Shown in pieces: positions 2,396 through 64,000 of a stretch of 64,000 nucleotides of DNA. A model generated the notes under the pieces. The model was not told where the DNA came from. It did no database searches and saw only the letters and a list, made by a program, of their open reading frames with translations. Where the stretch lies: positions 1 to 64,000 of the forward strand of contig NZ_FMXB01000007.1 of the NCBI RefSeq assembly GCF_900103415.1, written 5' to 3'. The DNA comes from Methanobrevibacter millerae. GTDB taxonomy: Archaea > Methanobacteriota > Methanobacteria > Methanobacteriales > Methanobacteriaceae. A program made the position numbers and the translations under genes. The first letter of the stretch is position 1, and every line of letters starts with the position of its first letter.

Positions 2396-2398
2396 ATT

Positions 2399-2440
2399 TA
2401 GAGATTATTTAAATCTCTATTTCTTTTACTTTTTTTTAAA
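2399..2440 (+). terminator. Terminator of hdrA
   Basis: An 8-bp perfect stem (2399-2406 with 2412-2419) with a 5-base loop is followed by a T-rich stretch ending near 2437. It starts just after the hdrA stop codon. Confidence 0.6.
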
Positions 2441-2584
2441 AGCTTATTTTTACACATTATTTCAAAATCTTTTTTTCCCGAGTATTATCTTAAAATGCAT
2501 TTATCGGCTATTTTTCATAACTCTTATATTATAAGATAAACAAAAATTAAAACATACTTTTTAATTTAATTTAAGGTGTAGTAA

Positions 2585-45600: not shown

Positions 45601-48600
45601 GGAGCTATTTACATAAATGGTGAGCGAACAGTCATTTCCACTTCAACATTTGAAAACCACTCCGCATATACCGGAGGATCTGTCTACATCAACGGTACGG
45701 ACACAACCATTTTGGATTCCGATATCAACAATTCCACTGCAGAATACGGTGGAGCAGTCTTTATCCAAGGTCTTAATGCTAAAATTAAAGGTGGAGATAT
45801 AAGCAACTGTTCCTGTAAATATGACGGTGGAGCTATTTATGTGAACGGTACCAATGCAGAAATTTCAGCCGATTTCGTAAACTGTAACGCAAGTTCAATA
45901 ACAACTCCTGATATTAAAGGTAACGGTGGTGCAATTTATGTAAACGGTACCAATACAAACGTGCACGATTCCACTTTCCTCAACTGTACTGCAATGAATG
46001 GCGGTTACGGTGGAGCTATTTATATTGAAGGAGTAGATACCACTGTTCAAACTTCCAGATTCGAGAATACTAAAACCAGTGATGAGGGTAAAGGAGGAGC
46101 AATTTACATTGAAGGTTCAAGAGCTACCGTTACGACTTCCGAATTTATCAATACTCATTCCCGTGAAGGTGGAGCTATTTATATTGAAGGTATTAATACC
46201 ACTGTAACTGACACGGTCTTTACTGAAACTAATGTAGGTACAGCCTCTTACTGGGGAGATTCCAGTTATAGTGGTGGTGCAACTGATTATACAGCCCCTA
46301 TTGCAGGTAATGGTGGAGCAATCTATATTTGGGGTCCAAATACTTATATTAAAAATGCTACAATTGATTCAAGCTATGCTACACAGCGTGGTGGAGCCAT
46401 TTATGTTGAAGGACATGATGCGAAAATATCCGCCAATATTCATGAATCTCATGCAGGTTTAACTGACACGTCAACTAACTTTAATGTAAATAATCCTGAT
46501 TATAAAGTTGATGTTCAAGAAATCAGAAATATGCTTAATGATATGGTGTCAACCTACGCTGTGAATGTTACAATTTACAACGATAATCTTTCTACAATCA
46601 AGAATAATGCAAAATCTGCTAGAGATGATCAAAACAATAAGGTTGATAATATACTTAATAATAAAAATGTATTTAATCAAGCTGTCTTTGATGCAGTTTT
46701 AGCGAATGTACTTGAAATCAATACTACATTGTCCTATTTGGAAAGTGAATCTCCATTAATTTATGATTCATTGATTGGCTATTATAATAATATTTATGCT
46801 GATTTAATTGAAATTAACACTAGTAGGGATTGGAATGAATTTAATGGACATATTAGAAATGATATTAGAAATAACTTAACTGCTATTATTAAATTTGTAG
46901 ATTATTGCAATGAGTTAGGTGGTGATTTAGGAAGAGGTAGTAATGATGCAAAATATCTACAGAATAATGATAAGACTTATGCTGCTGTGAATAGTAGGCT
47001 TGTAAAACTCCAAGACTATTATGAAGAGTTTAAAGGCGATATAAATAATTTAATCGGATATAACTCCGGATTTAATTATCTGGTAGATTATAATGAAGCA
47101 TTTGGCATTCAAGTAAATAAAACATATGACTCTGTTAATGCGCTACACGATCAAGGAATTAAGGGAGAAGGTGGTGCTATTTATGTGAACGGTACCAACA
47201 CTTTAATCTACGATTCCATCATGTCCAAAACTCATGCGGATAATAACGGTGACGGTGGTGCTGTATTTGTTGCAGGTGTAAACACTACAGTAAGGGATTC
47301 CTCTTTCGATGAATCTAAAGCTACTGATGGTGGTGCTGTTTATGTAACCGGTAGTGAAACATCTATTATGAATTCCAATTTCACTAATACCATTTCAACA
47401 AATAATGGTGGTGGAATTTACGTTGCAGGACACAATACTTATATCTCAGGAGATTCATTTGATAAATCTAAAGCGCAGGGAACTGATGCTACTGATGGTG
47501 GTGGAGCTATGTATATCGTTGGAGATGGAACCTATGTTTCAGATTCTAACTTCACATTATCAGACTCCAGTAGATATGGTGGTGCAATATATATAGCAGG
47601 TAAAAATACGGATATTCTCAGATCCAATTTCATACAGAACCATGCTTCATCTCCTGGTGGTGCAGTATACATTCAATCCAATTTAGGTTTAAATACTACT
47701 GTAGATGATTGTTACTTCTTTGATAACAGTGCCGGAGGCTCTGGAGGAGCATTGCACGTTTCAGGTACAAACACTACAGTAAATAACACTGTTTTCATAA
47801 AAAATCATGGTGTATCTTGGGGTGGTGCTATTTATATTAATGGTATTAATGCAACCGTACAATACACTAATTTAAGTGAAAATACCGCTTCTTCTAATGG
47901 TGGAGCTATCTACTGGCAGGGTGGTCACGGCGGAGATTCAATTATCGGATGTATTATCTTTAATAACAGTGCTACCTCATATGATTCTGCTTTAGGTGGA
48001 GGTGTATTCTGGAGTGTTGGTAATGATGTTACTCCGGGTGGTTTAGTAAAAGACACAATCTTTGACAGCAATTATGCCGGAAAACACGGTGGAGGTATGG
48101 ACTGGTACCGTACTGTAAACAGTACTATGGAAAACTGTACTTTCATTAATAACGTTGCCGGTAAAGACGGTGGTGGTTTCTACTGTGGTGATACTTCTGC
48201 ATTTGAAGTAAGTACAAACCTTACTTTAATTAATTCAAAATTCATTAATAATACTGCTAACTATGCTGGTGGGGGAGCTTCCATTCAGATGAGGTCTTCT
48301 CATATTGTAAATTGTCTTTTCGACGATAATATAGCATACTTCGGCGGATCCATTGTTATTAAAGATTCAAAAACTACATATAATGAAATTATTAATTGTA
48401 CTTTCATCAATTCTACTGCAAGTACCACTTTCATTAATTCCACGGTCCAATCAATTATTGATCATTATAAAGATTTAGATGAATTCTGTAAAGGTAAAGG
48501 TGGAGCGATATTCGCTAGAGACAATTATATTTCAGTTATAAACTCAACTTTCATTGACGGTAATGCTAAATACGGTGGAGCAATATTCTGGGATGGTGGT

Positions 48601-51600
48601 GAGAATTATCAAAGTACTGATCCTTCTAAAAAAACTGGTACTTTAGGTATTGGTGGCGTAATAAACAATTCAACTTTCATTGGAAACAATGCTACTCAGG
48701 GTGGAGCTGTCATGTGGACCAGTCCTGACGGAATAATAGCTAACTCAACTTTCAGAGGAAATAATGCAAGTGAAGGTGGTGCTGTCTATTGGAAAGGTGG
48801 AGTTGAATACATTGCATACGCCTGGAATTATAAAGATACATTTGCAATCCACGGTAATAACGGTAAAGTTGTCAATTCCGAATTCAGTGAAAATACCGCA
48901 ACAAAGGGTGGTGCTATCTACTGGACTGCTGAAAAAGGTAATGTTTCCAATTCAGTATTTACAGATAACTATGCTGAACTAGGTGGTGCCATCTACTGGC
49001 AAAACATCACTGAAACAGCAAATACTGGAAATCGTGCAATTTACTACAAAACAGCATCAACCGGTAGAAACGGTGTTGTCGAGAATTCCACATTCTTCGC
49101 CAACAAAGCTAATTATGACACAGGTAAAGGAGGAGCTATCTATTGGAACACTTCCTCAAGTAACATTACGGATACAACTTTCCTGAACAATACTGCAAGT
49201 AATGGTGGAGCTATTTACTGGGTAAACGGTACTAAAGTAGATAATTCAACTTTCAGATTCAACAAAGCTCATACAGGTTCTGCAATGTATTTCGATTCAT
49301 CCATGAAGGAAATGGATATCATCGATTCATCATTCTTGGAAAACAGGGCAGATTCCAACAGATTTGAAGATTTTAAAGTTGAAAATATTACAAATGGTGC
49401 TTCTACAACCGGTGTTCGTGTAAGCGCATACTTCATAGGAAACGACAATATTATTAATGCAATGTATAACAATGGCGGTGAAGTTTACTTCACTAATGTA
49501 GATTATCTTGGTGTCGATGGCACTCCTGCTCCTGTTATAAATAACACTGGTAATAGTCGTGTAACTCCTGTAAAAATCAGTACTGTACCTCCTAATTCAA
49601 ATACATTCTATCAAACCGATTATGAAAAAGGTCAGATTGTTAAAATAGTCATGTATGACCTAAACGGTCTTGTTTATGATGGTACTTTAATAACAGATGA
49701 TTATGGTAAAGTTTCATTAGAACAAAGTGGATTGGATGACTCAGTCAAAATGAAAATGGAACATCCTGCAGATGATTATTACACTTATCTTGGTATAAAT
49801 CATAATATTCAAATGGTATTTATAGATATTGAAACTGCAGACATCGAATGTCTTGATGACGAAATCATTAATCTTACGGTGTACCCTCAAAATAAATCTG
49901 AGACTAGAGCGCCTACGCGCAATCTTACAGTAAAGGTTATCGGAGATAATGGATTAACATATGAAGTAAATGTTACACTAACTCCTGTTGAAAATACAAA
50001 TCGTTCTATTGCACAGGTTACTGTTCCTAAATGTCCAACTGGCTATTATTCAGTTATGGTGCATTATTATGGTGATGATTATTACATTGAACATGATAAT
50101 TCATCTTCATTTAGAGCAAGAGGAACAGATCCTACAATCGTTATCGATACTGAAGACATCTGGGTTGGCCAGATGGAAATAATCAACATTACCGTTGACC
50201 CAACCAAAAAAGTAACGGGTAACGTATCAGTATATATTGACAGCGTATATTTCGGAGACTTGCCTCTTGTCAACGGAACCATACAGATTAGGGATAATAC
50301 ATTCCCTGTCGGACGCCATAACGTCATTGGAATCTATAACGGTGACGAGCACTTTAAGCTTGTACGTAACACATCCAGTTTCTTGGTTAAAAAATACACT
50401 CCATACTTTGTAATACATGCTCAGGACATTCTGGTAGACCAAACCGAATTTATTTGGATTGAACTTCCTAAAAACGCTACTGGATTTGTCTATCTTAAAG
50501 TAAACGGCGAACCGTATTACATTAATTTAACTGCAGGTGAAAGAAACATAACCCTTCCTGCATTCGCTCATGACGGCATATATGACGTTTGGGGTAATTA
50601 CTCCGGTGACGGTTACTGGAACAGTGTAATTAACACGACTCAATTCAGAGTTTCAAAACATAACATTACCCTGAATATCACGGATGTAGTCAAAATCTAT
50701 GGCGAATCCGAAAAGGCCAATATAACCTTCAATGTAACGGATGCGACGGGTAATGTGACAATCAAGATCAATGGTACTTTAAAGGTATATGAAAATGTTA
50801 CAATAGTCGGCGGTAAAGCAACGGTTGACATAAGCGGTCTGGATCCTGGAAATTACACCATGGAGGTAATCTATCTGGGTGACAGGAAATATAATGGAAA
50901 TACAACTTCCGGAAAACTTACCGTTAAAAGGGCAAAAATCCCTATCTATGTTGATACCTATAACATCTACTATGGTGAAAAGGAACATATTATAGCCCAT
51001 GTAAACACTACAGGATCTGTGACATTTAGGCTAAACGGTACTGTAATAGGTGATGATAGTCTCGCTAGAGGAGTTGCAGAATATGATACCAGGAACGATT
51101 TACTGCCTGGAATCTACACGGTCAACGCAACCTTCAGCGGAAATAAATATTATGAACCTGGATGGAACATTTCCACTTATGAAGTATATAAATTAAACAG
51201 AACTATCGTTTTAAATGTTTACGATATCATTTACGGAAATCTTGAAGAGTTAAGGGTATTTGTAAATGCAACAGGTAATGTAACCATTAAAGTTAATGGT
51301 ACTGAAAAAACTATTGTGCTTGACGTTGAACAATATGGAGCTATTGACAGAGGAAAAGCTTCCTGGATTCTAGAAGGTTTGGATGTAGGTACCTATCCTG
51401 TTGAAGTAACTTACAATGGTAATAATATTTATAATCCTAACAGCACCAGCGGAGTATTCCGTGTAATTCCACTGAATACTACTTTGGATGTCAGAGTCCA
51501 TGACATTTACGTATGGGATAGTGAATATCTCAACGTGACTGTAAAAGACTTACAAGGAAAGGTTATTAAAGACGCTCCTGGAAACATTACAATCACTGTT

Positions 51601-54600
51601 AACGGAGTAACTTACAGTGAAAAGTTATATAACGGTGTTGCTAGATTCGTAATCCCTGGATTAAGCGTAGGTTATAAGGATGTCTGGGCATTCTATGACG
51701 GAGACAAAAACCATGTAGGAAACAGATCCGACGCTTCATTTGTTGTCAAACAGAGAGTACCTCCTGTAAGCGTTGAAGGCGAAGACATCAAAGTCGGACA
51801 AGTCGAAACGATTCATGTGAAGATTCCTGCAAACGCAACAGGATTCGTAATCATAACCGGTAACTTCTCCAAAAACGGAATCTACGTAGCTAACTTTGAA
51901 AACGGCATGGCAGACATTCCGGTTTATAACTTGGCTAACGGAACCTACAGCGTACACATTAAATATTATGGAGACGCTCTTGACAACTACACAACGGCCG
52001 AAGCCAGCGATACATTCACTGTATCCAAAAACAACACTCCAATCAATATTGAAGTAGAAGACATCTTCTACAAGGAAATAGCCAATATTACGGTAAGCGT
52101 TGACAATGATGCTACAGGCCTGATAACGGTCAAGGTCGTTAACGGAAGCGGTGTTGTTAAAGAGGCCACATTGCCGATAATGAACGGCAAAGTCAACTTG
52201 CTTGTTGATAATCTGGCTGTCGATACATACACGGTTTATGCAAACTACTCTGGAAACTACAAGTACAACGTAAATCAAACCAGCAAAGCATTTAAAGTTA
52301 AAAAGATTGCTCCTGTTATCACAATTGATTCAGTAGAGACAAATTCAATTAGAAATGCAACCGTAGTTGTTCACATTACTCCTGGAACTACCGGAAACGT
52401 AACGATTACAGTTAACAATAAGCAATACTCAAGTAAAATCGAAAACGGTGTTGCAACATTTGTCATTGATCAATTGAATTCAGGCAATTACACGGTTTAT
52501 GCAGATTATCCTGGTGACAGAAACTTCACGGATGCTCATACCCACAAAGACAATGCGGTAAACATATTCAGATACTCATGCTATGTAATGAACGTCACTG
52601 CTGAAGACACTAAGGTTGATTTAAATACTACAATCATTGTAAATGTTCCTTGCGATGCTGTGGGCGAAGTGGCAATCTATATCAACGGTTCATTCATTGC
52701 TAATGTGCCTGTCGATAATGGCGTTGCAAAATTAAACGTAACTAAATCAATATATGGTAAATACGTAGTTAACGCAACATTCATGGACGGCAAATACGCC
52801 AACAAGACAGTAACTACCAATTATCATGTATTCAAATGGGATACTCCGATGATAATCAATGTCACTGACATTTATGTTGGAGACATCGAAACAATCGTTG
52901 TAAGTGTTCCTGATGACATTAAGAATAACGTAACTATTGAAATAGATGGAAAAACATACTCCGGCAAAGTAATTAACGGTAACGCAACATTTAAGGTAGC
53001 TAACTTGACTTACGGAAACAAGACGGTTACTTCAATCTATGGCGGCAACTACAAGTACCTCTTCAATGCTACTACAAATAACTTCACGGTTTACAAACGT
53101 CCATCTACATTAATTGTTAACACAACAGAAATTCATGTTGATGATGTTGCAATAATTAACGTAACGGTTCCTCAAAACGCTACTGGCTATGTTATTGTCA
53201 GCGTAAATGGAACGAACTATACAGTAAACTTAACCGGCGGCAAAGGTTCTCTGTCAGTTCCTGGTCTTGACTCAGGAATCTATAACATTAATGCAACCTA
53301 CCTCGGTGATGAACAGTACCTGTCAAGCGTCAACTCAACAACATTGAAAGTATCCAAAGTGCCTTCAACAGTATCTGCACATGCGGATAACATTACTGTC
53401 GGTGAAAAGGCAATCATTGAAATAATCGTTCCTGCTGATGCTACAGGCAACGTGACAGTTACTTTGGACCATAAGGATTATAACGTATCTGTTGGCGGCG
53501 GTAAAGGAATTCTTGTTGTTCCTGGCTTGAAAGTCGGAAATTACACTGTTGATGTCAAGTATCTCGGTGACAGGAAATATGAGGATAGCAGTAATGCTAC
53601 TAAATTCAGCGTAAATAAAATTAAAACTGATATGGAAGTCATTGATAACGGTAACGGAACTGTTACTATTGTTATTCCTGGTAACGCAACCGGTAACGTG
53701 ACTGTTGTTGTTGAAAATAAGACGTTCAACGGAACTGTGGTCAACGGCTGTCGACTCTTGACTAATGTAACTCCTGGTGTTCACAATATTACCGTAATCT
53801 ATTCCGGTGATGAAAACCACACAAGCGAAATCATTAATGCGACCGTAACGGTTCCAAGGTTCTTCACTCCTATTAAAGTTTATGTGGCCGATATTTATGT
53901 AGGTGATGTTGCTTTAATCAATGTGACTGTTCCTGTTAATGCTACTGGCAAGATTAGAATTGAGATTGATGGTAAGGAGTACTTCTATCCAATTGAAACA
54001 GGAATTGCAAGATTTGCTGTTGAAAACCTCACTGCAGGTGTAAAAACTGTTTATGTCTCATACAGGACTGACGGTAATTACTCAAGCAATTCCACTTCAG
54101 GCAATTTCACAGTTAAAAAACACATTCCTGTTGTTACTGTTGATACGACAGATATTAATGTTGGAGATATTGCGGTAATTAACGTAACCGCTCCAGTTGA
54201 CGTTACAAAACCTCTTGTCGTTAATGTTAATAATGTTGACTATTCAGTAAACGTAACTAATGGTATCGGTCAATTGAATGTCTCCGGTTTAGATAGCGGC
54301 AAATACAACGTAACTGTCAAATACCTCGGTGATGACAAATACTTAACTGGAAGCAATGATACTAGCTTTACTGTATCCAAAGTGCCTTCAACAGTATCTG
54401 CACATGCGGATAACATTACTGTGGGTGAAAAGGCAATCATTGAAATAATCGTTCCTGCTGATGCTACAGGCAACGTAACTGTAACTTTAGACCATAAGGA
54501 TTATAATGTATCTGTTGGCGGCGGTAAAGGAATTCTTGTTGTTCCTGGCTTGAAAGTCGGAAATTACACTGTTGATGTCAAGTATCTCGGTGACAGGAAA

Positions 54601-57600
54601 TATGAGGATAGCAGTAATGCTACTAAATTCAGCGTAAATAAAATTAAAACTGATATGGAAGTCATTGATAACGGTAACGGAACTGTTACTATTGTTATTC
54701 CTGGTAACGCAACCGGTAACGTGACTGTTGTTGTTGAAAATAAGACCTTCAATGGAACTGTTGTTAACGGTACTGTTACGATTAACTTGACTAATGTAAC
54801 TCCTGGTGTTCACAATATTACCGTAATCTATTCCGGTGATGAAAACCACACAAGCGAGATCATTAATGCGACCGTAACGGTTCCAAGGTTCTTCACTCCA
54901 ATCAGCGTTAACGTTACTGACATTTATGTTGGAGACATTGCTAAGATTAATGTGACTGTTCCTGTTAATGCTACCGGTAAAATCAGAATTGAAATTGACG
55001 GTAAGGAGTACTATGAAGACATTATTGGTGGCATTGCAAGGTTCAATATCGCAAACCTGACTGCCGGTGTAAAAACGGTTTATGCATCATACAGAACTGA
55101 CGTCAATTACTCAAGCAATTCCACTTCAGCCAAATTCATGGTATTCAAGTATCTTCCGGTAATCACGATTAATGCATCAGACATTACCGTTGGAGAAGTC
55201 GAATACATTAACGTAACTGCTCCTGCTGATGTAACAAGACCTGTAATCGTCAGTATCGGCGGTGTTGATTATTCAGTAAACGTTACCAATGGTATCGGTC
55301 ACTTGAATATCTCTGACTTGGGCGGCGGAAAATACAACGCAACTGTCAAATACTTAGGTGATGACAAATATCTGGCTGCAAACAATACAACCAGCTTTAC
55401 AGTATCCAAATTGCCTTCAACAGTATCTGCACATGCGGATAACATTACTGTCGGCGAAAAGGCAATCATTGAAATCTATGTTCTCGCTGACGCTACCGGA
55501 AACGTAACAGTAACTTTAGACCATAAGGATTATAACGTACCTGTTGCTGGCGGTAGAGGAACTCTTATAGTTCCTGGCTTGAAAGTCGGAAACTACACAG
55601 TTGATGTCAAATACCTTGGTGACAGGAAATATGAAGAAAGCAATAATGCTACTAAATTCAGCGTAAATAAAATCAATACTCAAATGGAAGTTATTGATAA
55701 TGGTAACGGAACTGTTACTATTGTTATTCCTGGCAATGCAACAGGCAATGTGACTGTTAAGGTTGAAAATAAGACATTCAACGGAACTGTTGTTAACGGT
55801 ACTGTTACCATTAATTTAACGAACGTAACTCCTGGTGTTCATAACATTACCGTAATCTATTCCGGTGATGACAACCACACGAGTGATATCATTAATGCGA
55901 CCGTAACGGTTCCAAGGTTCTTCACTCCAATCAGCGTTAACGTAACTGACATTTATGTCGGAGACATTGCTAAGATTAATGTGACTGTTCCTGCAAACGC
56001 TACAGGCAAGATCAGAATTGAAATTAACGGTAAGGAGTACTATGAAGACATTATCGGAGGAGTTGCAAGGTTCAATATCGCAAACCTGACTGCCGGTGTT
56101 AAAACGGTTTATGTATCATACAAGACTGACGGCAATTACTCAAGCAATTCCACTTCAGCCAACTTCACGGTATTCAAGTATCTTCCTGTAATCACGGTTA
56201 GTGCTATTAACATTACGGTTGGAGAGCTTGAAATAATTAACGTAACCGCTCCTGCTGATGTAACAAGACCTGTAATCGTCAGTATCGGCGGCGTTGATTA
56301 TTCAGTAAACATTACCAATGGTATCGGTCAGCTGGAAGTCCATGACTTGGGCGGAGGTAACTACAACGTAACGGCCAAATATTATGGTGATGACAAATAT
56401 CTGGATGCATCTAATAAAACCAGCTGTGTAGTGTACAAATTGCCTTCAACAGTATCTGCACATGCGGATAACATTACTGTCGGCGAAAAGGCAATCATTG
56501 AAATCAGTGTTTTAGATGATGCTACTGGAAATGTAACTGTAACTTTAGGAGGCAAAGATTATAACGTAACTGTTGGCGAAGGCAAAGGAATTCTTGTTGT
56601 TCCTGGATTGAAAGTCGGAAACTACACAGTTGAAGTCAAATATCTCGGTGACAGAAGATACGATGAAAGCAGCAATACCACTAAATTCAGCGTAAACAAA
56701 ATGTCCGGAGGCATGGAAGTAATTGATAACGGTAACGGAACTGTTACAATCATCATTCCTGGAAACGCAACTGGTAACGTAACTGTTATAGTTGAAAATA
56801 AGACATTCAACGGAACTGTTGTCAACGGCACAGTTACAATCGAGCTGACTAACGTAACTCCTGGTGTTCACAACATTACCGTAATCTATTCCGGTGATGA
56901 CACCCATGAAAGTGAAATCGTCAATACGACCGTAACGATTCCTCTAATTCTTACTCCGATTAAGGTCTATGTTGAAAACATTTATGTCGGAGACATTGCT
57001 AAGATTAATGTGACTGTTCCTGTAAACGCTACCGGAAAAATCAGAATTGAAATCGACGGTAAAGACTATTATTCAGATATTGATGGCGGAGTTGCAAGAT
57101 TTAGGGTTGAAAACCTCACTGCAGGCATCAAGACGGTTGCCGTATCCTACGCAGGAGATCGCAACTTCACACGCAACTTCACAACCGCAAACTTCACGGT
57201 ATTCAAGCATAAACTGACAGTTACTGTCGATGCAGGAGACATAATCGTTGGTGATGTCGCATTAATTAATGTAACGGCTCCAATTGACGTTACAAGGCCT
57301 GTTGTCGTTAACGTTGCCGGCGTTGATTATGCAGTAAACATAACTAACGGAATCGGACACTTGTCTGTCTACTATCTGGGCGGCGGCGAATATGTGGTAA
57401 CCGCAAAATACCTTGGTGACGATAAATACCTTACTGCCAACGATACTGCAAGATTTAAAGTATCCAAAATCCCTTCAACTGTTTCAGTTACTGCTGAAAA
57501 CATTACTTTCGGTGAAAAAGAAGTAATTCAAATAACAGTTCCTGCTGACGCTACCGGAAACGTAACGGTCACTGTGGACGGCAAAGACTATAATGTATCC

Positions 57601-60600
57601 GTCAGTGAAGGCAAAGGTATCCTTGTTGTTTCTGGCCTTAAAGTCGATAACTACACTGTTGAAGTCAAATATCTCGGTGACAGAAAATATGAGGAAAGCA
57701 ATAACGCAACTGCATTCACGGTCAAGAAGTTAACAACCGATGAGGTCATTGTAATCGACAACGGAAACGGAACGGTTACTGTTATTGTTCCTGGAAACTC
57801 AACAGGCAATATTACCATTGAAGTTGAAAATAAAACGTTCAATGGAACCCTGGTAAACGGCACGGTTACAATCGAGCTGACTAATGTAACTCCTGGCGAA
57901 CACAATATCACCGTGATCTACTCCGGCGATGAAAACCACAGTAACGCAACAGTCAATGCAACAGTAACGATTCCAAAACTCATTACTCCAATCAAGGTTT
58001 ATGTTGGAGACATTTATGTCGGCGACATTGCAAGAATCAACGTAACGGTTCCTGATGGTGCTATCGGCAGAATCAGAATTGAAATTGACGCTAAAGAGTA
58101 CTTCGCTCCAATCGAAAACGGAGTTGCAAGATTTGCTGTTGAAAACCTGACTGCCGGCGGAAAAACGGTTTATGTCTCTTATGTCGGAGACAACAACTAC
58201 ACCGGAAATCACACGTCAGGCAATTTCACGGTATTGAAGTACACTCCGGTCATTACGGTCACTGCATCTGACATCATTGTCGGAGACGTTTCATTAATTA
58301 ACGTAACCGCTCCAGCTGACGTAACAAGACCTGTTGTCGTTAATGTTGGCGGCGTTGACTATGCAGTTAACATTACTGGTGGAATCGGCCACTTGAATAT
58401 CACCGGTCTAGACGGCGGAGAATACGACGTAACCGCAAGATACCTTGGTGATGATAAATACGTGGCTGCTAACGATACTGCAAGCTTTAAAGTATCTAAA
58501 GTCCCTTCAACTGTTTCAGTTACTGCTGAAAACATTACTTTCGGTGAAAAAGAAGTAATTCAGATTACTGTTCCTTCTGACGCTACCGGAAACGTAACGG
58601 TCACTGTTGGTGGTAAAGACTACAATGTTTCAGTTTCTGAAGGCAAAGGCGTCCTTGTTGTCACTGGCTTGAAAGTCGGAAACTACACGGTTGAAGTCAA
58701 ATATCCTGGTGACAGAAGATATGAGGAAAGCGAAAACTCAACAGCATTCATTGTCAAGAAACTGAGCGCAGATGACATCAAGGTAATTGACAACGGAAAC
58801 GGCACTGTCACAGTCGTCGTTCCTGGAAACGCTACAGGCAACATCACGATAAAAATCGGAAACCAGACCTTCAACGGTACTGTAGTCAACGGAACAGCTG
58901 TTATTGAATTGACAAACGTAACTCCTGGCGAGCACAACATTACCGTAATCTACGGCGGAGACGAAATCTACTCCAACTCAACAGTTAACGGAACAGTAAC
59001 GATTCCAAGACTCACAACTCCAATCAAGGTTTACGTTGAAGACATTTATGTCGGTGACATTGCAAGAATCAACGTAACGGTTCCTGCCGGTGCTAGCGGC
59101 GAAATCAGAATCGAAATCAATGGTAAAGAGTACTTCGCTCCAATCGAAAACGGAGTTGCAAGATTCAATGTTGAAAACCTTACTTACGGTGTAAAAACGG
59201 TTGCAGTCACATACGGCGGTGATGAAAGCTACGTAGCTAACTTCACAACCGGAAACTTCACTGTATACAAACGCAATTCAGCCGTAAGCGCTGAAGTCGA
59301 AAGCGTCATTGTAGGCGAAATCGTAACGATTAAAGTCAAAGTCCCAACCGATGCAACAGGACAGGTACTGGTTGACATCGACGGAGTATCACAATACTAC
59401 GTAAATGTAACCGGCGGCGAAGGATTCGTTGACGTGCCTTACATACCAAGCGGAATATACGACGTCAATTTAACCTATATCGGTGACGACAAATACTTAT
59501 CAAGCACAAACAAAACAGTATTTGACGTCAATAAGGTCAAACCGTTCGTAATTCCAATTGCACATGACATTATCGTCGGCGAAAACGAAGTGATTAAATT
59601 AATCGTTCCTTCAGACGCTACCGGAAATGTAACTGTCGTAATTGATGGTCAGGAATACGTCTTTGACTTGAATGAAGGCACATTAGGCGCATACTACAAG
59701 GAAGGCGAAAAATACATCGTAGCCGTAAGCGGCGGAAACGGTGAATTGGTAATTGAAGGATTGCCTGTCGGCGAATATGTCGTAAGCGTAAGATACAATG
59801 GAGATCACAAATACACAACCGCAGACAACACGACAACATTCAAGGTACGTGACAGCAGCGATCTTGACATAATCGATTTAGGAAACGGAACTGTTGTCGT
59901 AAAAGTCCCTGGAAACGCAAGCGGTAACATTACAATAGTCGTTGAAAATCAAACCTATACTGCACCTGTAATAAACGGTACTGCAATAGTTGATTTAACC
60001 AACGTAACTCCTGGAGAGCACAACATTACCGTAATCTACTCCGGTGACGATACTCATGACCCTTCAGTTGAAAACGCTACAGTCAACATTCCAAAACTCT
60101 ACTGTCCAATAGACGTCGAAACCGAAAACATCCATGTCGGAGACGTTGAAGTCGTCAAGGTCACTGTTCCTAAAGACGCAACCGGTACAATTACAATTGA
60201 AATTGACGGTAAGGAATATACCAAACCGGTTAAAGACGGAAAAGCAGTATTTGAAGTTGAAGGATTGGAATTCGGTAACAAAACCGTTGCAGTTAAATAC
60301 TCAGGTGATGAAAGATACAGAGACAACTACACAACCGGGCAGTTTGAAGTAAACAAGCTTCCTACAACAATAACCGCAAAGGCTCATGACATCTATGTCG
60401 GAACCGATGAGATAATTGACGCCAAAGTGCTTCCGGAAGACGCAACCGGAAAAGTACTGGTTGACATTAACGGTGTTGGATACTATGGAAACATTACTGA
60501 AAACGGTATTGCAGGCATATTGATTCCTGAACTTCCAAGCGGAGAATACACAGCTATTGTAACCTATGAAGGAGACCACAAATACTTCCCAAGTACAACA

Positions 60601-61062
60601 ACAGTCAAATTCACTGTAACCAAACTCAAAACTCCTATCAATGCTGCAGGAGATGAAATCGAGGAAGGCGAATCAGCTACAGTTATTGTAAAAGTTCCTG
60701 AAGACGCAACCGGAACAATAACAATTGTCGTTGACGGTAAAAAATACACTGAAGAAGTTGAAAACGGTAAGGCAGTATTCAAGGTTCCTGGATTAGTCAA
60801 AGGTGACTGGGATGTGGACGCATCATACTCCGGTGATAAGAAATACGAAGCAAATGATACAATAACCGATATCTTGGTATATCGCTACGAACCGGTACCT
60901 GGAGGCAATGGAACCACTAATGAGACCAACAATACTCATCCGGACAATGCGTCTGTTTCAGAAAAAGGTATTTCATTAGCTGATTACCCAACCGGTAATC
61001 CAATTCTTGTGCTGTTGTTAATCTTGATTACACTTGGTGTTACAAGAAGATTTAAAAGATAG
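42664..61062 (+). CDS. Giant adhesin-like protein, C-terminal part (beta-helix, helical insert, Ig-like repeats, membrane anchor)
   Basis: 6,132 residues as read, with no signal peptide and no binding site at its ATG, so it is almost certainly the continuation of the frame from 34229. Beta-helix repeats run to about 49,500, broken by a helical, Asn/Asp-rich insert at 46,479-47,165. From about 49,600 to 60,870 come roughly 40 Ig-like domains of ~86 residues (Big_3-like; DIYVGD...INVTVP...VxYxGD). Six four-domain supermodules lie between 53,350 and 59,010. The end is a Thr/Asn linker, then SLADYPTGNP, a hydrophobic helix (ILVLLLILITLGV) and the basic tail TRRFKR: a YPTGNP-helix-Arg anchor like other Methanobrevibacter adhesins. 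Likely role: attachment to cells or feed particles (inferred). Confidence 0.9.
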   Translation: MMFSSSNILEGCTGDGNGGALYIAGDNAIISADFRFNNATGNASGNDTGKGGSLYVAGNNVTITESTFFTTCARDDGGALYITGQNGKLSNSTFTNNFAGDDGGAIYWEGSNGTIYNITCNDNRAISSTGSSNGGTICITGSNVTVDKSSFNKTHALISGGAIFATGNNVTISDTSFANCNVSMEIADTGKTYVNGGGAIYVLGNSSNIINCTFENTNGREGGALYIQGNNVTIENITSTSTNAKNGGSIYVSGQNAMILDSNITQAHATSDGGGLNIVGNHVEVINCTVEDCTSGSKTELGNGAGIYISGNGVDIEDSRFKNCVAPFEDLDAEKGSQGGAIYVAGNDVEIINDTIEECLAYQAGGVYILGNNALINMSSFTSNNGSDDGGALYVAGQNGSVYNSNFTHNIAGDDGGAIYWTGSNGFMYNITCNDNKAISSTGNSNGGTICLTGSNITIDKSSFNKTYALISGGAVFITGNYINITDTTFTNCNVSMDIEETHKDYVNGGGAIYVLGNNTYLLNCSFENNNAREGGSIYIQGNDVKMDRLKATDNYAKNGGTIYVAGENANMTNSNITQSHSEYGGAIYIEGDFAYIFMSDFTNNNASGKGITSCGGAIYIRGANTNILRSYFLNDTAIGGDGGSIYIGGYNANIEKSNFKNSNAYDGEGGAIFVAGNLAHVHDSTFNQTQAGDGGAIYIGGFRTGEDAKILNCTITNSIATEDGGAIYIAGQNALISVDVSDTKAAGLKNNTGYGGAIYVGGDDANITVSSFNNCSAGVNASGGAIYVEGDYANIEKSTFNNTYAKDGELASGGAIAIEGNMAVVSDSNFTECFAYNGGVLFVEGRRATLLNSNVSDCYAYSYGGAIYILDGEKTRIEASNFDNCTSITTEGGAIFIDGDFTVVLNSNFTNCNASSKDGLGGGIYILGEETSIQNATFDRCTSVDGGAIYIEGNDAHISDSNFIGNVLVNYTDDDNYGGAIYINGERTVISTSTFENHSAYTGGSVYINGTDTTILDSDINNSTAEYGGAVFIQGLNAKIKGGDISNCSCKYDGGAIYVNGTNAEISADFVNCNASSITTPDIKGNGGAIYVNGTNTNVHDSTFLNCTAMNGGYGGAIYIEGVDTTVQTSRFENTKTSDEGKGGAIYIEGSRATVTTSEFINTHSREGGAIYIEGINTTVTDTVFTETNVGTASYWGDSSYSGGATDYTAPIAGNGGAIYIWGPNTYIKNATIDSSYATQRGGAIYVEGHDAKISANIHESHAGLTDTSTNFNVNNPDYKVDVQEIRNMLNDMVSTYAVNVTIYNDNLSTIKNNAKSARDDQNNKVDNILNNKNVFNQAVFDAVLANVLEINTTLSYLESESPLIYDSLIGYYNNIYADLIEINTSRDWNEFNGHIRNDIRNNLTAIIKFVDYCNELGGDLGRGSNDAKYLQNNDKTYAAVNSRLVKLQDYYEEFKGDINNLIGYNSGFNYLVDYNEAFGIQVNKTYDSVNALHDQGIKGEGGAIYVNGTNTLIYDSIMSKTHADNNGDGGAVFVAGVNTTVRDSSFDESKATDGGAVYVTGSETSIMNSNFTNTISTNNGGGIYVAGHNTYISGDSFDKSKAQGTDATDGGGAMYIVGDGTYVSDSNFTLSDSSRYGGAIYIAGKNTDILRSNFIQNHASSPGGAVYIQSNLGLNTTVDDCYFFDNSAGGSGGALHVSGTNTTVNNTVFIKNHGVSWGGAIYINGINATVQYTNLSENTASSNGGAIYWQGGHGGDSIIGCIIFNNSATSYDSALGGGVFWSVGNDVTPGGLVKDTIFDSNYAGKHGGGMDWYRTVNSTMENCTFINNVAGKDGGGFYCGDTSAFEVSTNLTLINSKFINNTANYAGGGASIQMRSSHIVNCLFDDNIAYFGGSIVIKDSKTTYNEIINCTFINSTASTTFINSTVQSIIDHYKDLDEFCKGKGGAIFARDNYISVINSTFIDGNAKYGGAIFWDGGENYQSTDPSKKTGTLGIGGVINNSTFIGNNATQGGAVMWTSPDGIIANSTFRGNNASEGGAVYWKGGVEYIAYAWNYKDTFAIHGNNGKVVNSEFSENTATKGGAIYWTAEKGNVSNSVFTDNYAELGGAIYWQNITETANTGNRAIYYKTASTGRNGVVENSTFFANKANYDTGKGGAIYWNTSSSNITDTTFLNNTASNGGAIYWVNGTKVDNSTFRFNKAHTGSAMYFDSSMKEMDIIDSSFLENRADSNRFEDFKVENITNGASTTGVRVSAYFIGNDNIINAMYNNGGEVYFTNVDYLGVDGTPAPVINNTGNSRVTPVKISTVPPNSNTFYQTDYEKGQIVKIVMYDLNGLVYDGTLITDDYGKVSLEQSGLDDSVKMKMEHPADDYYTYLGINHNIQMVFIDIETADIECLDDEIINLTVYPQNKSETRAPTRNLTVKVIGDNGLTYEVNVTLTPVENTNRSIAQVTVPKCPTGYYSVMVHYYGDDYYIEHDNSSSFRARGTDPTIVIDTEDIWVGQMEIINITVDPTKKVTGNVSVYIDSVYFGDLPLVNGTIQIRDNTFPVGRHNVIGIYNGDEHFKLVRNTSSFLVKKYTPYFVIHAQDILVDQTEFIWIELPKNATGFVYLKVNGEPYYINLTAGERNITLPAFAHDGIYDVWGNYSGDGYWNSVINTTQFRVSKHNITLNITDVVKIYGESEKANITFNVTDATGNVTIKINGTLKVYENVTIVGGKATVDISGLDPGNYTMEVIYLGDRKYNGNTTSGKLTVKRAKIPIYVDTYNIYYGEKEHIIAHVNTTGSVTFRLNGTVIGDDSLARGVAEYDTRNDLLPGIYTVNATFSGNKYYEPGWNISTYEVYKLNRTIVLNVYDIIYGNLEELRVFVNATGNVTIKVNGTEKTIVLDVEQYGAIDRGKASWILEGLDVGTYPVEVTYNGNNIYNPNSTSGVFRVIPLNTTLDVRVHDIYVWDSEYLNVTVKDLQGKVIKDAPGNITITVNGVTYSEKLYNGVARFVIPGLSVGYKDVWAFYDGDKNHVGNRSDASFVVKQRVPPVSVEGEDIKVGQVETIHVKIPANATGFVIITGNFSKNGIYVANFENGMADIPVYNLANGTYSVHIKYYGDALDNYTTAEASDTFTVSKNNTPINIEVEDIFYKEIANITVSVDNDATGLITVKVVNGSGVVKEATLPIMNGKVNLLVDNLAVDTYTVYANYSGNYKYNVNQTSKAFKVKKIAPVITIDSVETNSIRNATVVVHITPGTTGNVTITVNNKQYSSKIENGVATFVIDQLNSGNYTVYADYPGDRNFTDAHTHKDNAVNIFRYSCYVMNVTAEDTKVDLNTTIIVNVPCDAVGEVAIYINGSFIANVPVDNGVAKLNVTKSIYGKYVVNATFMDGKYANKTVTTNYHVFKWDTPMIINVTDIYVGDIETIVVSVPDDIKNNVTIEIDGKTYSGKVINGNATFKVANLTYGNKTVTSIYGGNYKYLFNATTNNFTVYKRPSTLIVNTTEIHVDDVAIINVTVPQNATGYVIVSVNGTNYTVNLTGGKGSLSVPGLDSGIYNINATYLGDEQYLSSVNSTTLKVSKVPSTVSAHADNITVGEKAIIEIIVPADATGNVTVTLDHKDYNVSVGGGKGILVVPGLKVGNYTVDVKYLGDRKYEDSSNATKFSVNKIKTDMEVIDNGNGTVTIVIPGNATGNVTVVVENKTFNGTVVNGCRLLTNVTPGVHNITVIYSGDENHTSEIINATVTVPRFFTPIKVYVADIYVGDVALINVTVPVNATGKIRIEIDGKEYFYPIETGIARFAVENLTAGVKTVYVSYRTDGNYSSNSTSGNFTVKKHIPVVTVDTTDINVGDIAVINVTAPVDVTKPLVVNVNNVDYSVNVTNGIGQLNVSGLDSGKYNVTVKYLGDDKYLTGSNDTSFTVSKVPSTVSAHADNITVGEKAIIEIIVPADATGNVTVTLDHKDYNVSVGGGKGILVVPGLKVGNYTVDVKYLGDRKYEDSSNATKFSVNKIKTDMEVIDNGNGTVTIVIPGNATGNVTVVVENKTFNGTVVNGTVTINLTNVTPGVHNITVIYSGDENHTSEIINATVTVPRFFTPISVNVTDIYVGDIAKINVTVPVNATGKIRIEIDGKEYYEDIIGGIARFNIANLTAGVKTVYASYRTDVNYSSNSTSAKFMVFKYLPVITINASDITVGEVEYINVTAPADVTRPVIVSIGGVDYSVNVTNGIGHLNISDLGGGKYNATVKYLGDDKYLAANNTTSFTVSKLPSTVSAHADNITVGEKAIIEIYVLADATGNVTVTLDHKDYNVPVAGGRGTLIVPGLKVGNYTVDVKYLGDRKYEESNNATKFSVNKINTQMEVIDNGNGTVTIVIPGNATGNVTVKVENKTFNGTVVNGTVTINLTNVTPGVHNITVIYSGDDNHTSDIINATVTVPRFFTPISVNVTDIYVGDIAKINVTVPANATGKIRIEINGKEYYEDIIGGVARFNIANLTAGVKTVYVSYKTDGNYSSNSTSANFTVFKYLPVITVSAINITVGELEIINVTAPADVTRPVIVSIGGVDYSVNITNGIGQLEVHDLGGGNYNVTAKYYGDDKYLDASNKTSCVVYKLPSTVSAHADNITVGEKAIIEISVLDDATGNVTVTLGGKDYNVTVGEGKGILVVPGLKVGNYTVEVKYLGDRRYDESSNTTKFSVNKMSGGMEVIDNGNGTVTIIIPGNATGNVTVIVENKTFNGTVVNGTVTIELTNVTPGVHNITVIYSGDDTHESEIVNTTVTIPLILTPIKVYVENIYVGDIAKINVTVPVNATGKIRIEIDGKDYYSDIDGGVARFRVENLTAGIKTVAVSYAGDRNFTRNFTTANFTVFKHKLTVTVDAGDIIVGDVALINVTAPIDVTRPVVVNVAGVDYAVNITNGIGHLSVYYLGGGEYVVTAKYLGDDKYLTANDTARFKVSKIPSTVSVTAENITFGEKEVIQITVPADATGNVTVTVDGKDYNVSVSEGKGILVVSGLKVDNYTVEVKYLGDRKYEESNNATAFTVKKLTTDEVIVIDNGNGTVTVIVPGNSTGNITIEVENKTFNGTLVNGTVTIELTNVTPGEHNITVIYSGDENHSNATVNATVTIPKLITPIKVYVGDIYVGDIARINVTVPDGAIGRIRIEIDAKEYFAPIENGVARFAVENLTAGGKTVYVSYVGDNNYTGNHTSGNFTVLKYTPVITVTASDIIVGDVSLINVTAPADVTRPVVVNVGGVDYAVNITGGIGHLNITGLDGGEYDVTARYLGDDKYVAANDTASFKVSKVPSTVSVTAENITFGEKEVIQITVPSDATGNVTVTVGGKDYNVSVSEGKGVLVVTGLKVGNYTVEVKYPGDRRYEESENSTAFIVKKLSADDIKVIDNGNGTVTVVVPGNATGNITIKIGNQTFNGTVVNGTAVIELTNVTPGEHNITVIYGGDEIYSNSTVNGTVTIPRLTTPIKVYVEDIYVGDIARINVTVPAGASGEIRIEINGKEYFAPIENGVARFNVENLTYGVKTVAVTYGGDESYVANFTTGNFTVYKRNSAVSAEVESVIVGEIVTIKVKVPTDATGQVLVDIDGVSQYYVNVTGGEGFVDVPYIPSGIYDVNLTYIGDDKYLSSTNKTVFDVNKVKPFVIPIAHDIIVGENEVIKLIVPSDATGNVTVVIDGQEYVFDLNEGTLGAYYKEGEKYIVAVSGGNGELVIEGLPVGEYVVSVRYNGDHKYTTADNTTTFKVRDSSDLDIIDLGNGTVVVKVPGNASGNITIVVENQTYTAPVINGTAIVDLTNVTPGEHNITVIYSGDDTHDPSVENATVNIPKLYCPIDVETENIHVGDVEVVKVTVPKDATGTITIEIDGKEYTKPVKDGKAVFEVEGLEFGNKTVAVKYSGDERYRDNYTTGQFEVNKLPTTITAKAHDIYVGTDEIIDAKVLPEDATGKVLVDINGVGYYGNITENGIAGILIPELPSGEYTAIVTYEGDHKYFPSTTTVKFTVTKLKTPINAAGDEIEEGESATVIVKVPEDATGTITIVVDGKKYTEEVENGKAVFKVPGLVKGDWDVDASYSGDKKYEANDTITDILVYRYEPVPGGNGTTNETNNTHPDNASVSEKGISLADYPTGNPILVLLLILITLGVTRRFKR
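42880..44420 (+). repeat. 939-base duplication in the beta-helix region
   Basis: The block around 42,890-43,490 (SNGTIYNITCNDN...ISSTG, TICITGSNVTVDKSSFN, YVNGGGAIYVLGN) recurs at 43,830-44,430. TGTAACGA occurs at 43021 and 43960, exactly 939 bases (313 codons) apart. Confidence 0.8.
46479..47165 (+). other. Helical insertion domain within the beta-helix
   Basis: About 229 residues without GGAIY or NSxF repeats. They are rich in Asn, Asp, Leu, Ile and Lys with heptad-like spacing (for example VQEIRNMLNDMV and DNILNNKNVFNQAVFDAVL). The beta-helix pattern stops at SHAGLTDTST and resumes at KGEGGAIYVNGTN. The DNA is visibly more A+T-rich than both flanks. It is probably a coiled-coil arm projecting from the stalk. 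Confidence 0.7.
53350..59010 (+). repeat. Six four-domain Ig-like supermodules, period about 1,029 bases
   Basis: The segment encoding PSTVSA or PSTVSV starts at 53362, 54385, 55414, 56443, 57472 and 58504, with steps of 1023, 1029, 1029, 1029 and 1032. Each unit holds four Ig-like domains of ~86 residues: PSTVSAH..., MEVIDNGNGTV..., TPIxVxVxDIYVGD..., and a VITV-type domain. Copies 1 and 2 are almost identical over about 500 bases. Confidence 0.9.
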
Positions 61063-61382: not shown

Positions 61383-61402
61383 TTGAATATTAAGGTGATA
61401 TT

Positions 61403-62386
61403 ATGGTAGGAAGAAAACGAGAATATTATATGCAATTTGATGCGGCGCATACTTTTATGTTCAATGAATATCCTGCTGAGTATATTAAAACAATAGGTGT
61501 TCCGGGGCATTTTGTAAGATTTAGTAATAGAAAAGTTCTTTTAAATAATGGTATTACTGGTTTCATGGATTCGGCATTTATCCTTGATCCTGATGGTGAA
61601 ATATTAACTGAAAGGGTTGCAGCATGTCTGGAACATCAATCAACTCCTGTTGATCAAGAAAAATTAGAAAAAATGGGTGATTATGATATTCAGTTAGTTT
61701 CTGATGAAAATTTGCCTACACTAATAATTGTTGCATCACATTTAAGTTCTAGGAAATCCAAAACTATTCTTAGAAGATCACCATCAGATGTTACAATACT
61801 GTATTTCCTTGACCTTGGCGAAAAAGATAATCGTCGAAGATTAACAAGGTTAAGTAAGCTAATTGAAAACAATCAACATCTAACAACTGAAGATGCATTG
61901 AATCTTGGAGTAATTCTGCTTTACGCTCCCAGAGAATGTGCATGTGAAATAACTGAAAAAGTAGTAAATCTCTATCTTGCTATTCATGATGATTTAGATC
62001 GAAAGATGGAAAAATGTCTATATTCAGTTTTTTCCGTTTTGATTGATGCATTTTTTGATGACGAAACAGAATATAGGAGGTTAATGGACATGGTTAATGG
62101 AATAACTTCTAAAGAAGCTATAGATGAATTTGATGCAACTGCAAAAAGTTTCATGGAGCGCATAGAATGGACTGAAGAAGAGCTGGCTCGGTCTAATGCT
62201 ATGGTTCATGAACTTGGGGTTGAGAATTCTGGACTTAAGACTAAGAATTCAGAGCTTGGGGTTGAGAATTCCGGACTTAAGGCAAAGAATTCAGAGCTTG
62301 GGGTTGAGAATTCCGGACTTAAGGTTGAGAATGCTGAGCTTAAAGCTGAAGTTGCTAGGTTAACTGCTGCATTAAATGGAAAATAG
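61403..62386 (+). CDS. PD-(D/E)XK (Rpn-like) nuclease-family protein with repetitive coiled-coil tail
   Basis: A 327-residue protein. The N-terminal half resembles Rpn/YhgA-type PD-(D/E)XK proteins: Asp56 in FMDSAFIL and E77-H-Q79 in CLEHQST, the ExQ form seen in Rpn nucleases. Rpn proteins promote recombination in bacteria; whether this one cuts DNA is unknown. Residues 240-260 are helical (DEFDATAKSFMERIEWTEEELA). From about 265 comes a 14-residue repeat, nearly three copies (ELGVENSGLKxKNS), encoded by 42-base direct repeats and ending in AELKAEVARLTAALNGK. This is a coiled coil. GGTGAT precedes the ATG. A truncated copy of the tail follows. Confidence 0.65.
   Translation: MVGRKREYYMQFDAAHTFMFNEYPAEYIKTIGVPGHFVRFSNRKVLLNNGITGFMDSAFILDPDGEILTERVAACLEHQSTPVDQEKLEKMGDYDIQLVSDENLPTLIIVASHLSSRKSKTILRRSPSDVTILYFLDLGEKDNRRRLTRLSKLIENNQHLTTEDALNLGVILLYAPRECACEITEKVVNLYLAIHDDLDRKMEKCLYSVFSVLIDAFFDDETEYRRLMDMVNGITSKEAIDEFDATAKSFMERIEWTEEELARSNAMVHELGVENSGLKTKNSELGVENSGLKAKNSELGVENSGLKVENAELKAEVARLTAALNGK
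62208..62330 (+). repeat. 42-base in-frame direct repeats in the coiled-coil tail
   Basis: Nearly three copies of a 42-base unit beginning GAGCTTGGGGTTGAG encode ELGVENSGLKxKNS. Copies differ at very few bases, so the number of units could change by slippage or recombination without breaking the frame. Confidence 0.8.
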
Positions 62387-62498
62387 AGTAGTTTTTCTAT
62401 TCTATTTTCATGTTCATATTGTAAAATTAAATTTGGAATATGTGGCATTGTTTTTTCGCCCATTGTGGATAAGTATGTAGAATAATTGGGTTGACAAT

Positions 62499-62753
62499 AT
62501 GGTTAATGGAGTAACTTCACAAGAAAGTAAAGATGAATTTGATGCAACTGCAAAAAGTTTCATGGAGCGCATAGAATGGACTGAAGAAAAGTTGGCCAGA
62601 GCTAACGCTAAATATTCAGTACGTAAGGATAAGAATTTAGAGCTTAAGACTAAGAATTCAGAGCTTAAGGATAAGAATTTAGAGCTTAAGACTAAGAATG
62701 CTGAGCTTAAAGCTGAAGTTGCTAGGTTAACTGCTGCATTAAATGGAAAATAG
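62499..62753 (+). pseudogene. 5'-truncated duplicate of the nuclease-like gene tail (possible donor cassette)
   Basis: An open frame of 84 residues matches the last ~100 residues of the upstream gene: MVNGVTS, then DEFDATAKSFMERIEWTEE, a different heptad region (KDKNLELKTKNSELKDKN) and AELKAEVARLTAALNGK. 58 bases (62122-62179 and 62531-62588) and 63 bases (62328-62390 and 62695-62757) are identical. Weak similarity continues upstream to about 62,480, where the frame has TAG. No clear binding site precedes the ATG, so it is either a remnant or a small coiled-coil protein. The gap 62,387-62,498 holds nothing else. Confidence 0.65.
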
Positions 62754-63000
62754 AGTATTTTTTGTATTTTATTTTCACTTATTTTTTTAGATTAATGAGA
62801 ACACTTTATAATCATGCTTATTAATTATTTGTAAGATAAAATATCATTATTTCAAAAATTAAAGACGTTATCTTAAAAAACCTGCTTAAAAATAATTCTT
62901 CTTTACAATAATATTTTTACTTAATCAAATGTGTAATATAACCTTTAAATCAAATAACGAATAAATACAATATTGAGATAAATTTTAAGGATTGTTTTTC
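62754..63000. other. Intergenic region before the Mur ligase
   Basis: About 245 A+T-rich bases. The first ~20 resemble the 3' flank of the upstream nuclease-like gene (part of the same duplication). The rest has no gene and should hold the promoter of the Mur-ligase gene. AAGGATT lies about 8 bases before its ATG. Confidence 0.5.
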
Positions 63001-64000
63001 ATGAATTATTTAATTGTTGGTGCAGGAAATGCCAGTAGGCCCGTTGCAAGATTACTTAATCATTTAGGCCATGATGTCATTGTCACTGATTTAAAGGAAA
63101 TTTCAGAGTTCAAGATAGAATTTCAAAGAAGCTTAATTGAAATGGAAAAAGAGGGCGTTATTCTGGATTTGGGCAATAAAAATCCTGATTTAAACGGAAT
63201 TGAAGCAGTTTATGCTCCTCCAACGTTGCCAGATTCAGCCCCAATAGCCAAATTAATCAAAGACTCTGATGTTAAGATATTAACTAATGAGGAATTCTCC
63301 AAAATCGTAAATGACCTGATTCCCGTTGATATTATCGGAATTACTGGAACGATGGGAAAGACTACAACCACCTTCATTACAACCAGCCTATTCAAGCAGG
63401 CGGGATATAAGGTCTGGTCATGCTCATCACTGGTAAATAATCTTGTTTCCGAAGCCATCATTGATGGGATAGTTAAGGGAAAGGCAGATGACTGTGACAT
63501 AGCTGTTTTTGAACTTCCCCACGGTACAATCGGCCTTTTAAACAGCCTTGATATTAAAATAGGTCTTATAACAAACATCGCTGAAGACCATCTCTCCGAG
63601 TTCGGGGGATCTCTGGAACTGTACCAGAAGAGAAAACTGATTCTTGAAAAGATGTCCGAAACATTCATCGCAAATCACTCATGTTTTGACCTCATTAATC
63701 CTCAAAGAAACGATGCATTATATTATGCTTTAGACGAAGAAGTTGATTTTAAAGGTACCATTGGTGATGAATCCTTAACGATTGAATATAAAGATGGGTC
63801 TTTCACTACTCCCTTCTACATGATGAGCTACTTTTTTGAAAATTCCGTTGCAGCAAGTGCTGTTGCGCTGACATACGGCGTAAAGGAATCAGATATTATC
63901 GACGCTTTGACGGTGTTTAAAGGTCTTCCTGCCCATATGGAGGATGTGGGAGACTACAATGGAAGAAAGGTGATTCTGGACTCAGCATTCCTTTATGATG
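63001..64000 (+). CDS. Mur ligase family protein (partial), probable pseudomurein peptide ligase
   Basis: An open frame runs from ATG 63001 past the window end, with 333 residues visible. The N-terminal Rossmann domain (MNYLIVGAGNASRPVARLLN) is followed by the Mur-ligase P-loop GITGTMGKTTTT near 113-124 and the central domain (NIAEDHLSEFGGSLELYQKRK). The C-terminal domain is only begun. In Methanobacteriales such MurC/MurD-like ligases (pMur) are thought to build the peptide of pseudomurein. Which step this one performs cannot be told here. It is a cell-envelope gene, as is the giant adhesin nearby. Confidence 0.85.
   Translation, partial: MNYLIVGAGNASRPVARLLNHLGHDVIVTDLKEISEFKIEFQRSLIEMEKEGVILDLGNKNPDLNGIEAVYAPPTLPDSAPIAKLIKDSDVKILTNEEFSKIVNDLIPVDIIGITGTMGKTTTTFITTSLFKQAGYKVWSCSSLVNNLVSEAIIDGIVKGKADDCDIAVFELPHGTIGLLNSLDIKIGLITNIAEDHLSEFGGSLELYQKRKLILEKMSETFIANHSCFDLINPQRNDALYYALDEEVDFKGTIGDESLTIEYKDGSFTTPFYMMSYFFENSVAASAVALTYGVKESDIIDALTVFKGLPAHMEDVGDYNGRKVILDSAFLYD

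Follow-up and report, generated by a model that had tools for sequence, protein, structure and literature searches.

Downstream of a nuclease-like gene in the methanogenic archaeon Methanobrevibacter millerae lies a short open reading frame (ORF) that repeats the 3' part of this gene, with different repeats in its middle. Is this fragment a donor of alternative tails, a relic of a duplication, or a gene in its own right? The window, i.e. the whole stretch of DNA that was analysed, comprises positions 1 to 64,000 of the forward strand of contig NZ_FMXB01000007.1 (assembly GCF_900103415.1). We consider it probable that the locus consists of an rpnL-like gene with an intragenic rpnS, followed by a duplicated, free-standing RpnS. 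What is new here is an archaeal, heptad-repeat version of the known Rpn gene-within-gene system.

According to the excerpted text of Zhong et al. (2023; PMC10327210), Rpn genes of E. coli produce RpnS from an internal start, and RpnS blocks the toxic RpnL; a single added repeat breaks the match between the two. In the same excerpt, RpnS is also described as a separate downstream gene, i.e. ypaA behind rpnE and rpnCS behind rpnC, and these separate genes are said to have arisen independently at each gene. The gene-within-gene system was tested in E. coli and C. difficile (PMC10327210, excerpted text).

The nuclease-like gene, its proposed internal start and the tail copy

The window contains the following features, all on the plus strand:

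61393–61399 (+): AGGTGAT, Shine-Dalgarno-like site of the full-length gene, read from the sequence
61403–62386 (+): candidate rpnL-like gene of 327 aa, with a 229-aa PD-(D/E)XK-type part and a coiled-coil tail (ORF; conserved D13/D56/E77/Q79; structure model)
62075–62081 (+): AGGAGGT, internal Shine-Dalgarno-like site formed by the two Arg codons AGG AGG (sequence; family-wide codon bias)
62090–62386 (+): proposed intragenic rpnS of 98 aa, from the internal ATG at 62090 (start of the homology with the copy; 38 of 58 genes)
62122–62179 (+): 58-nt block, gene copy (exact repeat of 62531–62588)
62205–62341 (+): 42-nt repeats of the GVENSGLK type in the gene (repeat analysis)
62328–62390 (+): 63-nt block including the stop codon, gene copy (exact repeat of 62695–62757)
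62499–62753 (+): free-standing rpnS-like ORF of 84 aa with its own ATG (ORF; homology to the gene tail)
62531–62588 (+): 58-nt block, free copy (exact repeat of 62122–62179)
62614–62710 (+): 21/42-nt repeats of the KDKNLELK type in the free copy (repeat analysis)
62695–62757 (+): 63-nt block including the stop codon, free copy (exact repeat of 62328–62390)

The two blocks around different repeats, first noticed in the first-pass annotation, were confirmed as exact runs. From block start to block start the spacing is 206 nt in the gene and 164 nt in the copy; because the difference is 42 nt (14 codons), an exchange between the blocks would stay in frame, as the annotation had also claimed. The homology between gene and copy exceeds the two blocks and extends from ATG 62090 and ATG 62499, respectively, to 24 nt beyond the stop codon of the gene. 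Mismatches along this homology are clustered, with the longest identical run being matched in 9 of 5000 column shuffles, and the point differences are concentrated ahead of the 58-nt block (62090–62121).

Two other long ORFs frame the locus. An ORF of 6132 aa (42664–61062, +), with many beta-helix-like and Ig-like repeats, terminates just 5' of the nuclease gene and resembles a giant adhesin of the cell surface that is anchored in the membrane by its C-terminus. On the 3' side of the tail copy, the ORF at 62992–64000 (+) looks, by its GITGTMGKTTTT motif, like a Mur-ligase-type ATP-dependent ligase, which we take to be perhaps a pseudomurein enzyme.

The tail appears to have a start of its own. 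In the window, AGGAGGT is followed after 8 nt by ATG 62090, and the homology with the copy begins exactly there. To place this site in its family, we used a search that listed more than 100 places, of which 60 were taken with their flanks, chiefly those with high scores and no inner stops. A usable full-length ORF was obtained from 57 of these 60 (none from L048, L053 and L092), which together with the window gene gave a set of 58 genes (n = 55 in the structure alignment and n = 53 in the domain alignment). A start codon with at least five ribosome-site bases was present at residues 215–250 in 38 of the 58 genes and absent in 20. When the genes were divided into bins of 10 residues, such starts fell at residues 230–239 in 38 genes and at 220–229 in six, while every internal bin outside 220–239 held at most 4 of the 58; the true start had one in 30.

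Among 137 positions, none favours G more strongly than codons 225 and 226, which together form the internal Shine-Dalgarno site (codon 226 has 48 G to 7 A and codon 225 has 34 to 7, against 909 to 3289 overall), although the p-values of this codon bias overstate independence because the 58 genes are mutually related. This codon choice would be hard to explain unless the ribosome site itself were under selection. At the level of the sequence, an internal start for the tail alone is thereby present, as expected of an RpnL/RpnS system.

The same arrangement is found in E. coli. At rpnE/ypaA and rpnC/rpnCS, as in the window, the 3' part of a nuclease gene is present a second time behind that gene. 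In strain MG1655 the homology between rpnE and ypaA starts at AAGGAG-AGATTA-ATG, and the ypaA repeat is 12 nt longer; hence rpnE/ypaA and the window share both a homology that runs from the internal start and a difference in repeat length between gene and copy. The window differs in being archaeal and in that its copy is without the ribosome site that ypaA retains: no site of at least four matching bases precedes the start at 62499. The first-pass annotation regarded the fragment as a silent donor. Against this stand its own start codon, which exactly matches the internal start with ribosome site of the nuclease gene, and an arrangement identical to the antitoxin layout of E. coli described in the excerpted text of PMC10327210.

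We therefore propose the following mechanism for an RpnL/RpnS pair. RpnL would be a divergent archaeal Rpn-type DNA nuclease with a coiled-coil tail, and this tail would also be made alone from ATG 62090, yielding a small RpnS. RpnS would pair with the tail of RpnL and thereby hold off the nuclease. The ORF at 62499–62753 would be a duplicate of RpnS that stands alone and has since acquired different repeats. The anatomy of the locus, its recurrence in the family and the preference among synonymous codons at the internal ribosome site were observed directly. That RpnL is toxic, that RpnS inhibits it and that the tail repeats set the specificity is carried over by analogy from E. coli Rpn, and both predicted proteins would have to be expressed. 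The weakest point of the proposal is the free copy of the window itself, which we lean only slightly towards regarding as translated and functional. Because one extra repeat breaks inhibition in E. coli, the altered copy in the window may no longer inhibit its neighbour.

The predicted tail differs in shape from that of E. coli. The model of the window gene (pLDDT 94.9) places the tail of the full-length monomer in a single long helix (residues 237–326), with repeat units of 21 nt. Hence, the tail is predicted to be a single long coiled coil with 7-residue units, whereas E. coli RpnS folds into a bundle of three helices, the first of which contains 4-residue repeats; a compact three-helix bundle of the RpnAS type was not found in the model of the window tail.

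Identity of the nuclease domain

The comparisons of sequences and profiles indicate that the window gene probably encodes a divergent archaeal Rpn-type PD-(D/E)XK DNA nuclease. Residues D13, D56, E77 and Q79 are conserved in 52, 57, 56 and 50 of the 58 family members, respectively. In an alignment with the E. coli proteins they correspond to D11, D63, E82 and Q84 of RpnA, which according to an excerpt of Kingston (2017) needs these four residues for activity.

Direct comparison with the E. coli proteins gave only a faint signal. The family profile matched the four E. coli Rpn proteins with an hhalign probability of 4% (E 0.0097), and the best E value in hmmsearch was 0.04. Since the direct hhalign match is too weak alone, membership of the Rpn family is argued via archaeal intermediates. 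For this purpose, 20 TIGR01784-type loci were picked by hand, some of them for an adjoining short tail ORF, and the main ORF of each was chosen with the window-family profile. Each of the 20 loci contained an ORF that was matched by a nuclease-only profile of family residues 1–228 (E values from 6.6e-36 to 3.2e-6), against an E value of 0.5 for the best unrelated background ORF. In some of these loci the match to TIGR01784 spans the whole model (e.g. G048:C35, positions 2–272), below the curated cut-off. Furthermore, a profile that includes the archaeal intermediates placed three of the four E. coli Rpn proteins above all background ORFs (E 0.011–0.15), with the motif D...EHQS. The Rpn-like PD-(D/E)XK assignment of the first-pass annotation is thus upheld by the conserved catalytic set and by the profile link to the TIGR01784 loci, with no direct match of a curated model to the window protein.

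The known RpnL/RpnS systems (COG5464, TIGR01784, PF04754) share with the window family the D-D-E-x-Q set, an internal start for the tail and variable repeats. They differ in that curated models do not match the window family directly, the link running through intermediate archaeal Rpn genes. No Rpn model occurred among the matches listed for 55 members at E 0.01, where the listings covered 25 of 32 matched families in one scan and 25 of 26 in another. Matches to Pfam, NCBIfam and PADLOC for the protein and the 55 members were merely coiled-coil look-alikes and chance-level rows, and a PDB sequence search returned mainly coiled coils and no nuclease. PF12784 had no match in 67 genomes, a null result that is uninformative because its own controls were unmatched as well.

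Structure comparison suggested no more than a resemblance of fold. The model of the nuclease domain had a pLDDT of 96.7. With the domain alone, the highest-probability rows in Foldseek were EndoMS/NucS (0.87–0.90), at a non-significant E value of 0.15, and the whole model yielded no significant match. A VIA-align comparison of residues 12–143 with 2vld_B gave a Z of 7.6 and an rmsd of 3.1 over 105 aligned residues, while unrelated rows reached a similar Z. The resemblance to EndoMS/NucS is limited to the PD-(D/E)XK fold, and the domain layout is different.

A literature search on the Rpn family in Methanobrevibacter found no report, which is not proof of absence in print. The results carry the gene-within-gene Rpn system over to methanogenic archaea, where comparison across the family supports the internal start.

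Exchange and repeat change between gene and copy

Two orthologous pairs of loci with a nuclease gene and a downstream copy showed different histories. In the pair L056 (genome G004) and L074 (genome G016), the nuclease DNA is identical at 582 of 708 positions and the downstream DNA including the copy at 490 of 589. Within each of these genomes, gene and copy share an identical run of 83 nt. Six sites in this run differ between the genomes, and at all six the gene equals the copy of its own genome (conversion pattern), while at none does gene equal gene. Over the whole alignment there were 15 conversion sites, four orthologous sites, no crossed sites and 62 others. This pattern points to gene conversion after the split of the two genomes; repeated re-duplication appears less likely.

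In contrast, the loci L079 and L082, whose nuclease DNA is identical at 672 of 674 positions, contained 22 orthologous sites and no conversion sites, and their tails keep their own ends. Their repeat numbers have changed, with four versus one units in the gene and one versus three in the copy. Repeat number thus varies between close relatives, as in the RpnL/RpnS systems, with a unit of 7 aa instead of 4. Comparison of the two pairs implies that blocks are indeed exchanged in the family, although not universally, and that repeat number shifts on its own. Part of the recombination suggested in the first-pass annotation is therefore borne out, since gene-copy conversion occurs in the family; the tail swap itself was seen in neither of the two orthologous pairs.

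The rapid change of repeat number in L079 and L082 is also what slippage alone would produce, i.e. divergence of the middles through added or lost 21-nt units and point changes, without any exchange. This account is compatible with the reading as an RpnL/RpnS pair, and we regard it as possible but not as the likelier course of events, as it leaves both the clustered differences at 62090–62121 and the conversion pattern of L056 and L074 unexplained.

A more tentative extension of the RpnL/RpnS reading, which we rate as rather unlikely, is that gene conversion keeps the nuclease gene and the free tail matched to each other. The start-proximal part, presumed to be the pairing helix, would be homogenised repeatedly while the distal repeats drift, and cuts by the nuclease itself might initiate the process. 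If this were true, an archaeon could change the pairing code of its nuclease and still store a matching or earlier-type antitoxin. Natural gene conversion between a nuclease tail and a free antitoxin-like copy is relevant to the question of how the two partners continue to fit each other as their repeats change.

Free-standing tail copies across the family

We searched for ORFs that match the gene's own tail within 1.5 kb of the gene. Such an ORF was found downstream in 19 of the 58 loci and upstream in none (best upstream score 38). As DNA, 17 of the 19 copies align to their own gene (78–98%), whereas the copies in L062 and L080 are weak, with scores of 99 and 83 versus a shuffled-tail maximum of 88. 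Within the window's own genome there are 12 Rpn-like places, including 10 loci with a full-length ORF; six of these 10 have a downstream tail copy, among them the weak one in L062. A separate copy is thus common in these methanogenic archaea, both in the subfamily and among the full-length Rpn-like loci of this genome. A tail copy was also present in 8 of the 20 hand-picked TIGR01784-type loci of the genus, a rate that is biased because some of these loci were chosen for a neighbouring tail ORF. At four of those eight (L109, L110, L113 and L117), a single Rpn gene is followed by two tail-copy ORFs in tandem, which suggests that the antitoxin-like part was duplicated more than once. No free copy was present at eight loci whose genes are closer relatives of the window gene (L035–L041 and L044; identity 0.55–0.62 or near). 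Because L035–L041, its nearest relatives in the set, are among them, the copy in the window is either young or was lost in these relatives.

These copies bear on the explanation that the ORF is a functionless, decaying relic of a chance duplication of the gene's 3' end. Several observations agree with decay: the missing ribosome site at 62499, copies that begin at differing points across the family, and three of the 19 copies that are truncated or broken (L055, L045 and L050). However, about 16 of the 19 copies are open to their end, and copies occur exclusively downstream. Moreover, in L060, L067 and L068 a frameshift interrupts the duplicated lead, which derives from the nuclease part, but the RpnS part remains open; this argues against simple decay. 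A pseudogene label is also no safe guide, as RefSeq annotates E. coli ypaA as a pseudogene, yet its product was detected according to the excerpted text of Zhong et al. (PMC10327210). We consider decay unlikely.

Some copies carry signals for their own translation. A ribosome site of at least five bases was found at a candidate start in 6 of the 19 copies (L084, L067, L054, L060, L062 and the broken L055). In L079 and L082, the ATG of the copy overlaps the stop codon of the nuclease gene, as in translational coupling.

A DNA search of 66 further genomes of the genus yielded only short pieces of the exact window locus, and a scan of viral contigs found no relative. The silent-donor explanation, in which the expressed tail would be exchanged for the other repeat type through recombination between the blocks, is in line with the in-frame blocks, the clustered mismatches of the window pair, the conversion in L056 and L074, and the increase in RecA-independent recombination upon Rpn overexpression in E. 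coli (Kingston 2017, excerpt), but is highly improbable given that the copy opens with a start codon that is the counterpart of the internal start, and not at an arbitrary donor edge, that the tails of L079 and L082 keep their own ends, and that a genome with a swapped tail was not found among these 66.

Two further loci depart from the intact arrangement of nuclease gene and tail. At L066:2917-3852 (-), the tail of the nuclease gene is apparently frameshifted within its repeats (KKQRTNSKKQRN), whereas the downstream copy reads normally, so that the free copy may be the sole intact tail there. At L142 (G000:C25), three short, mutually matching Rpn-like ORFs of 128–182 aa lie near one another, perhaps as a broken tandem array.
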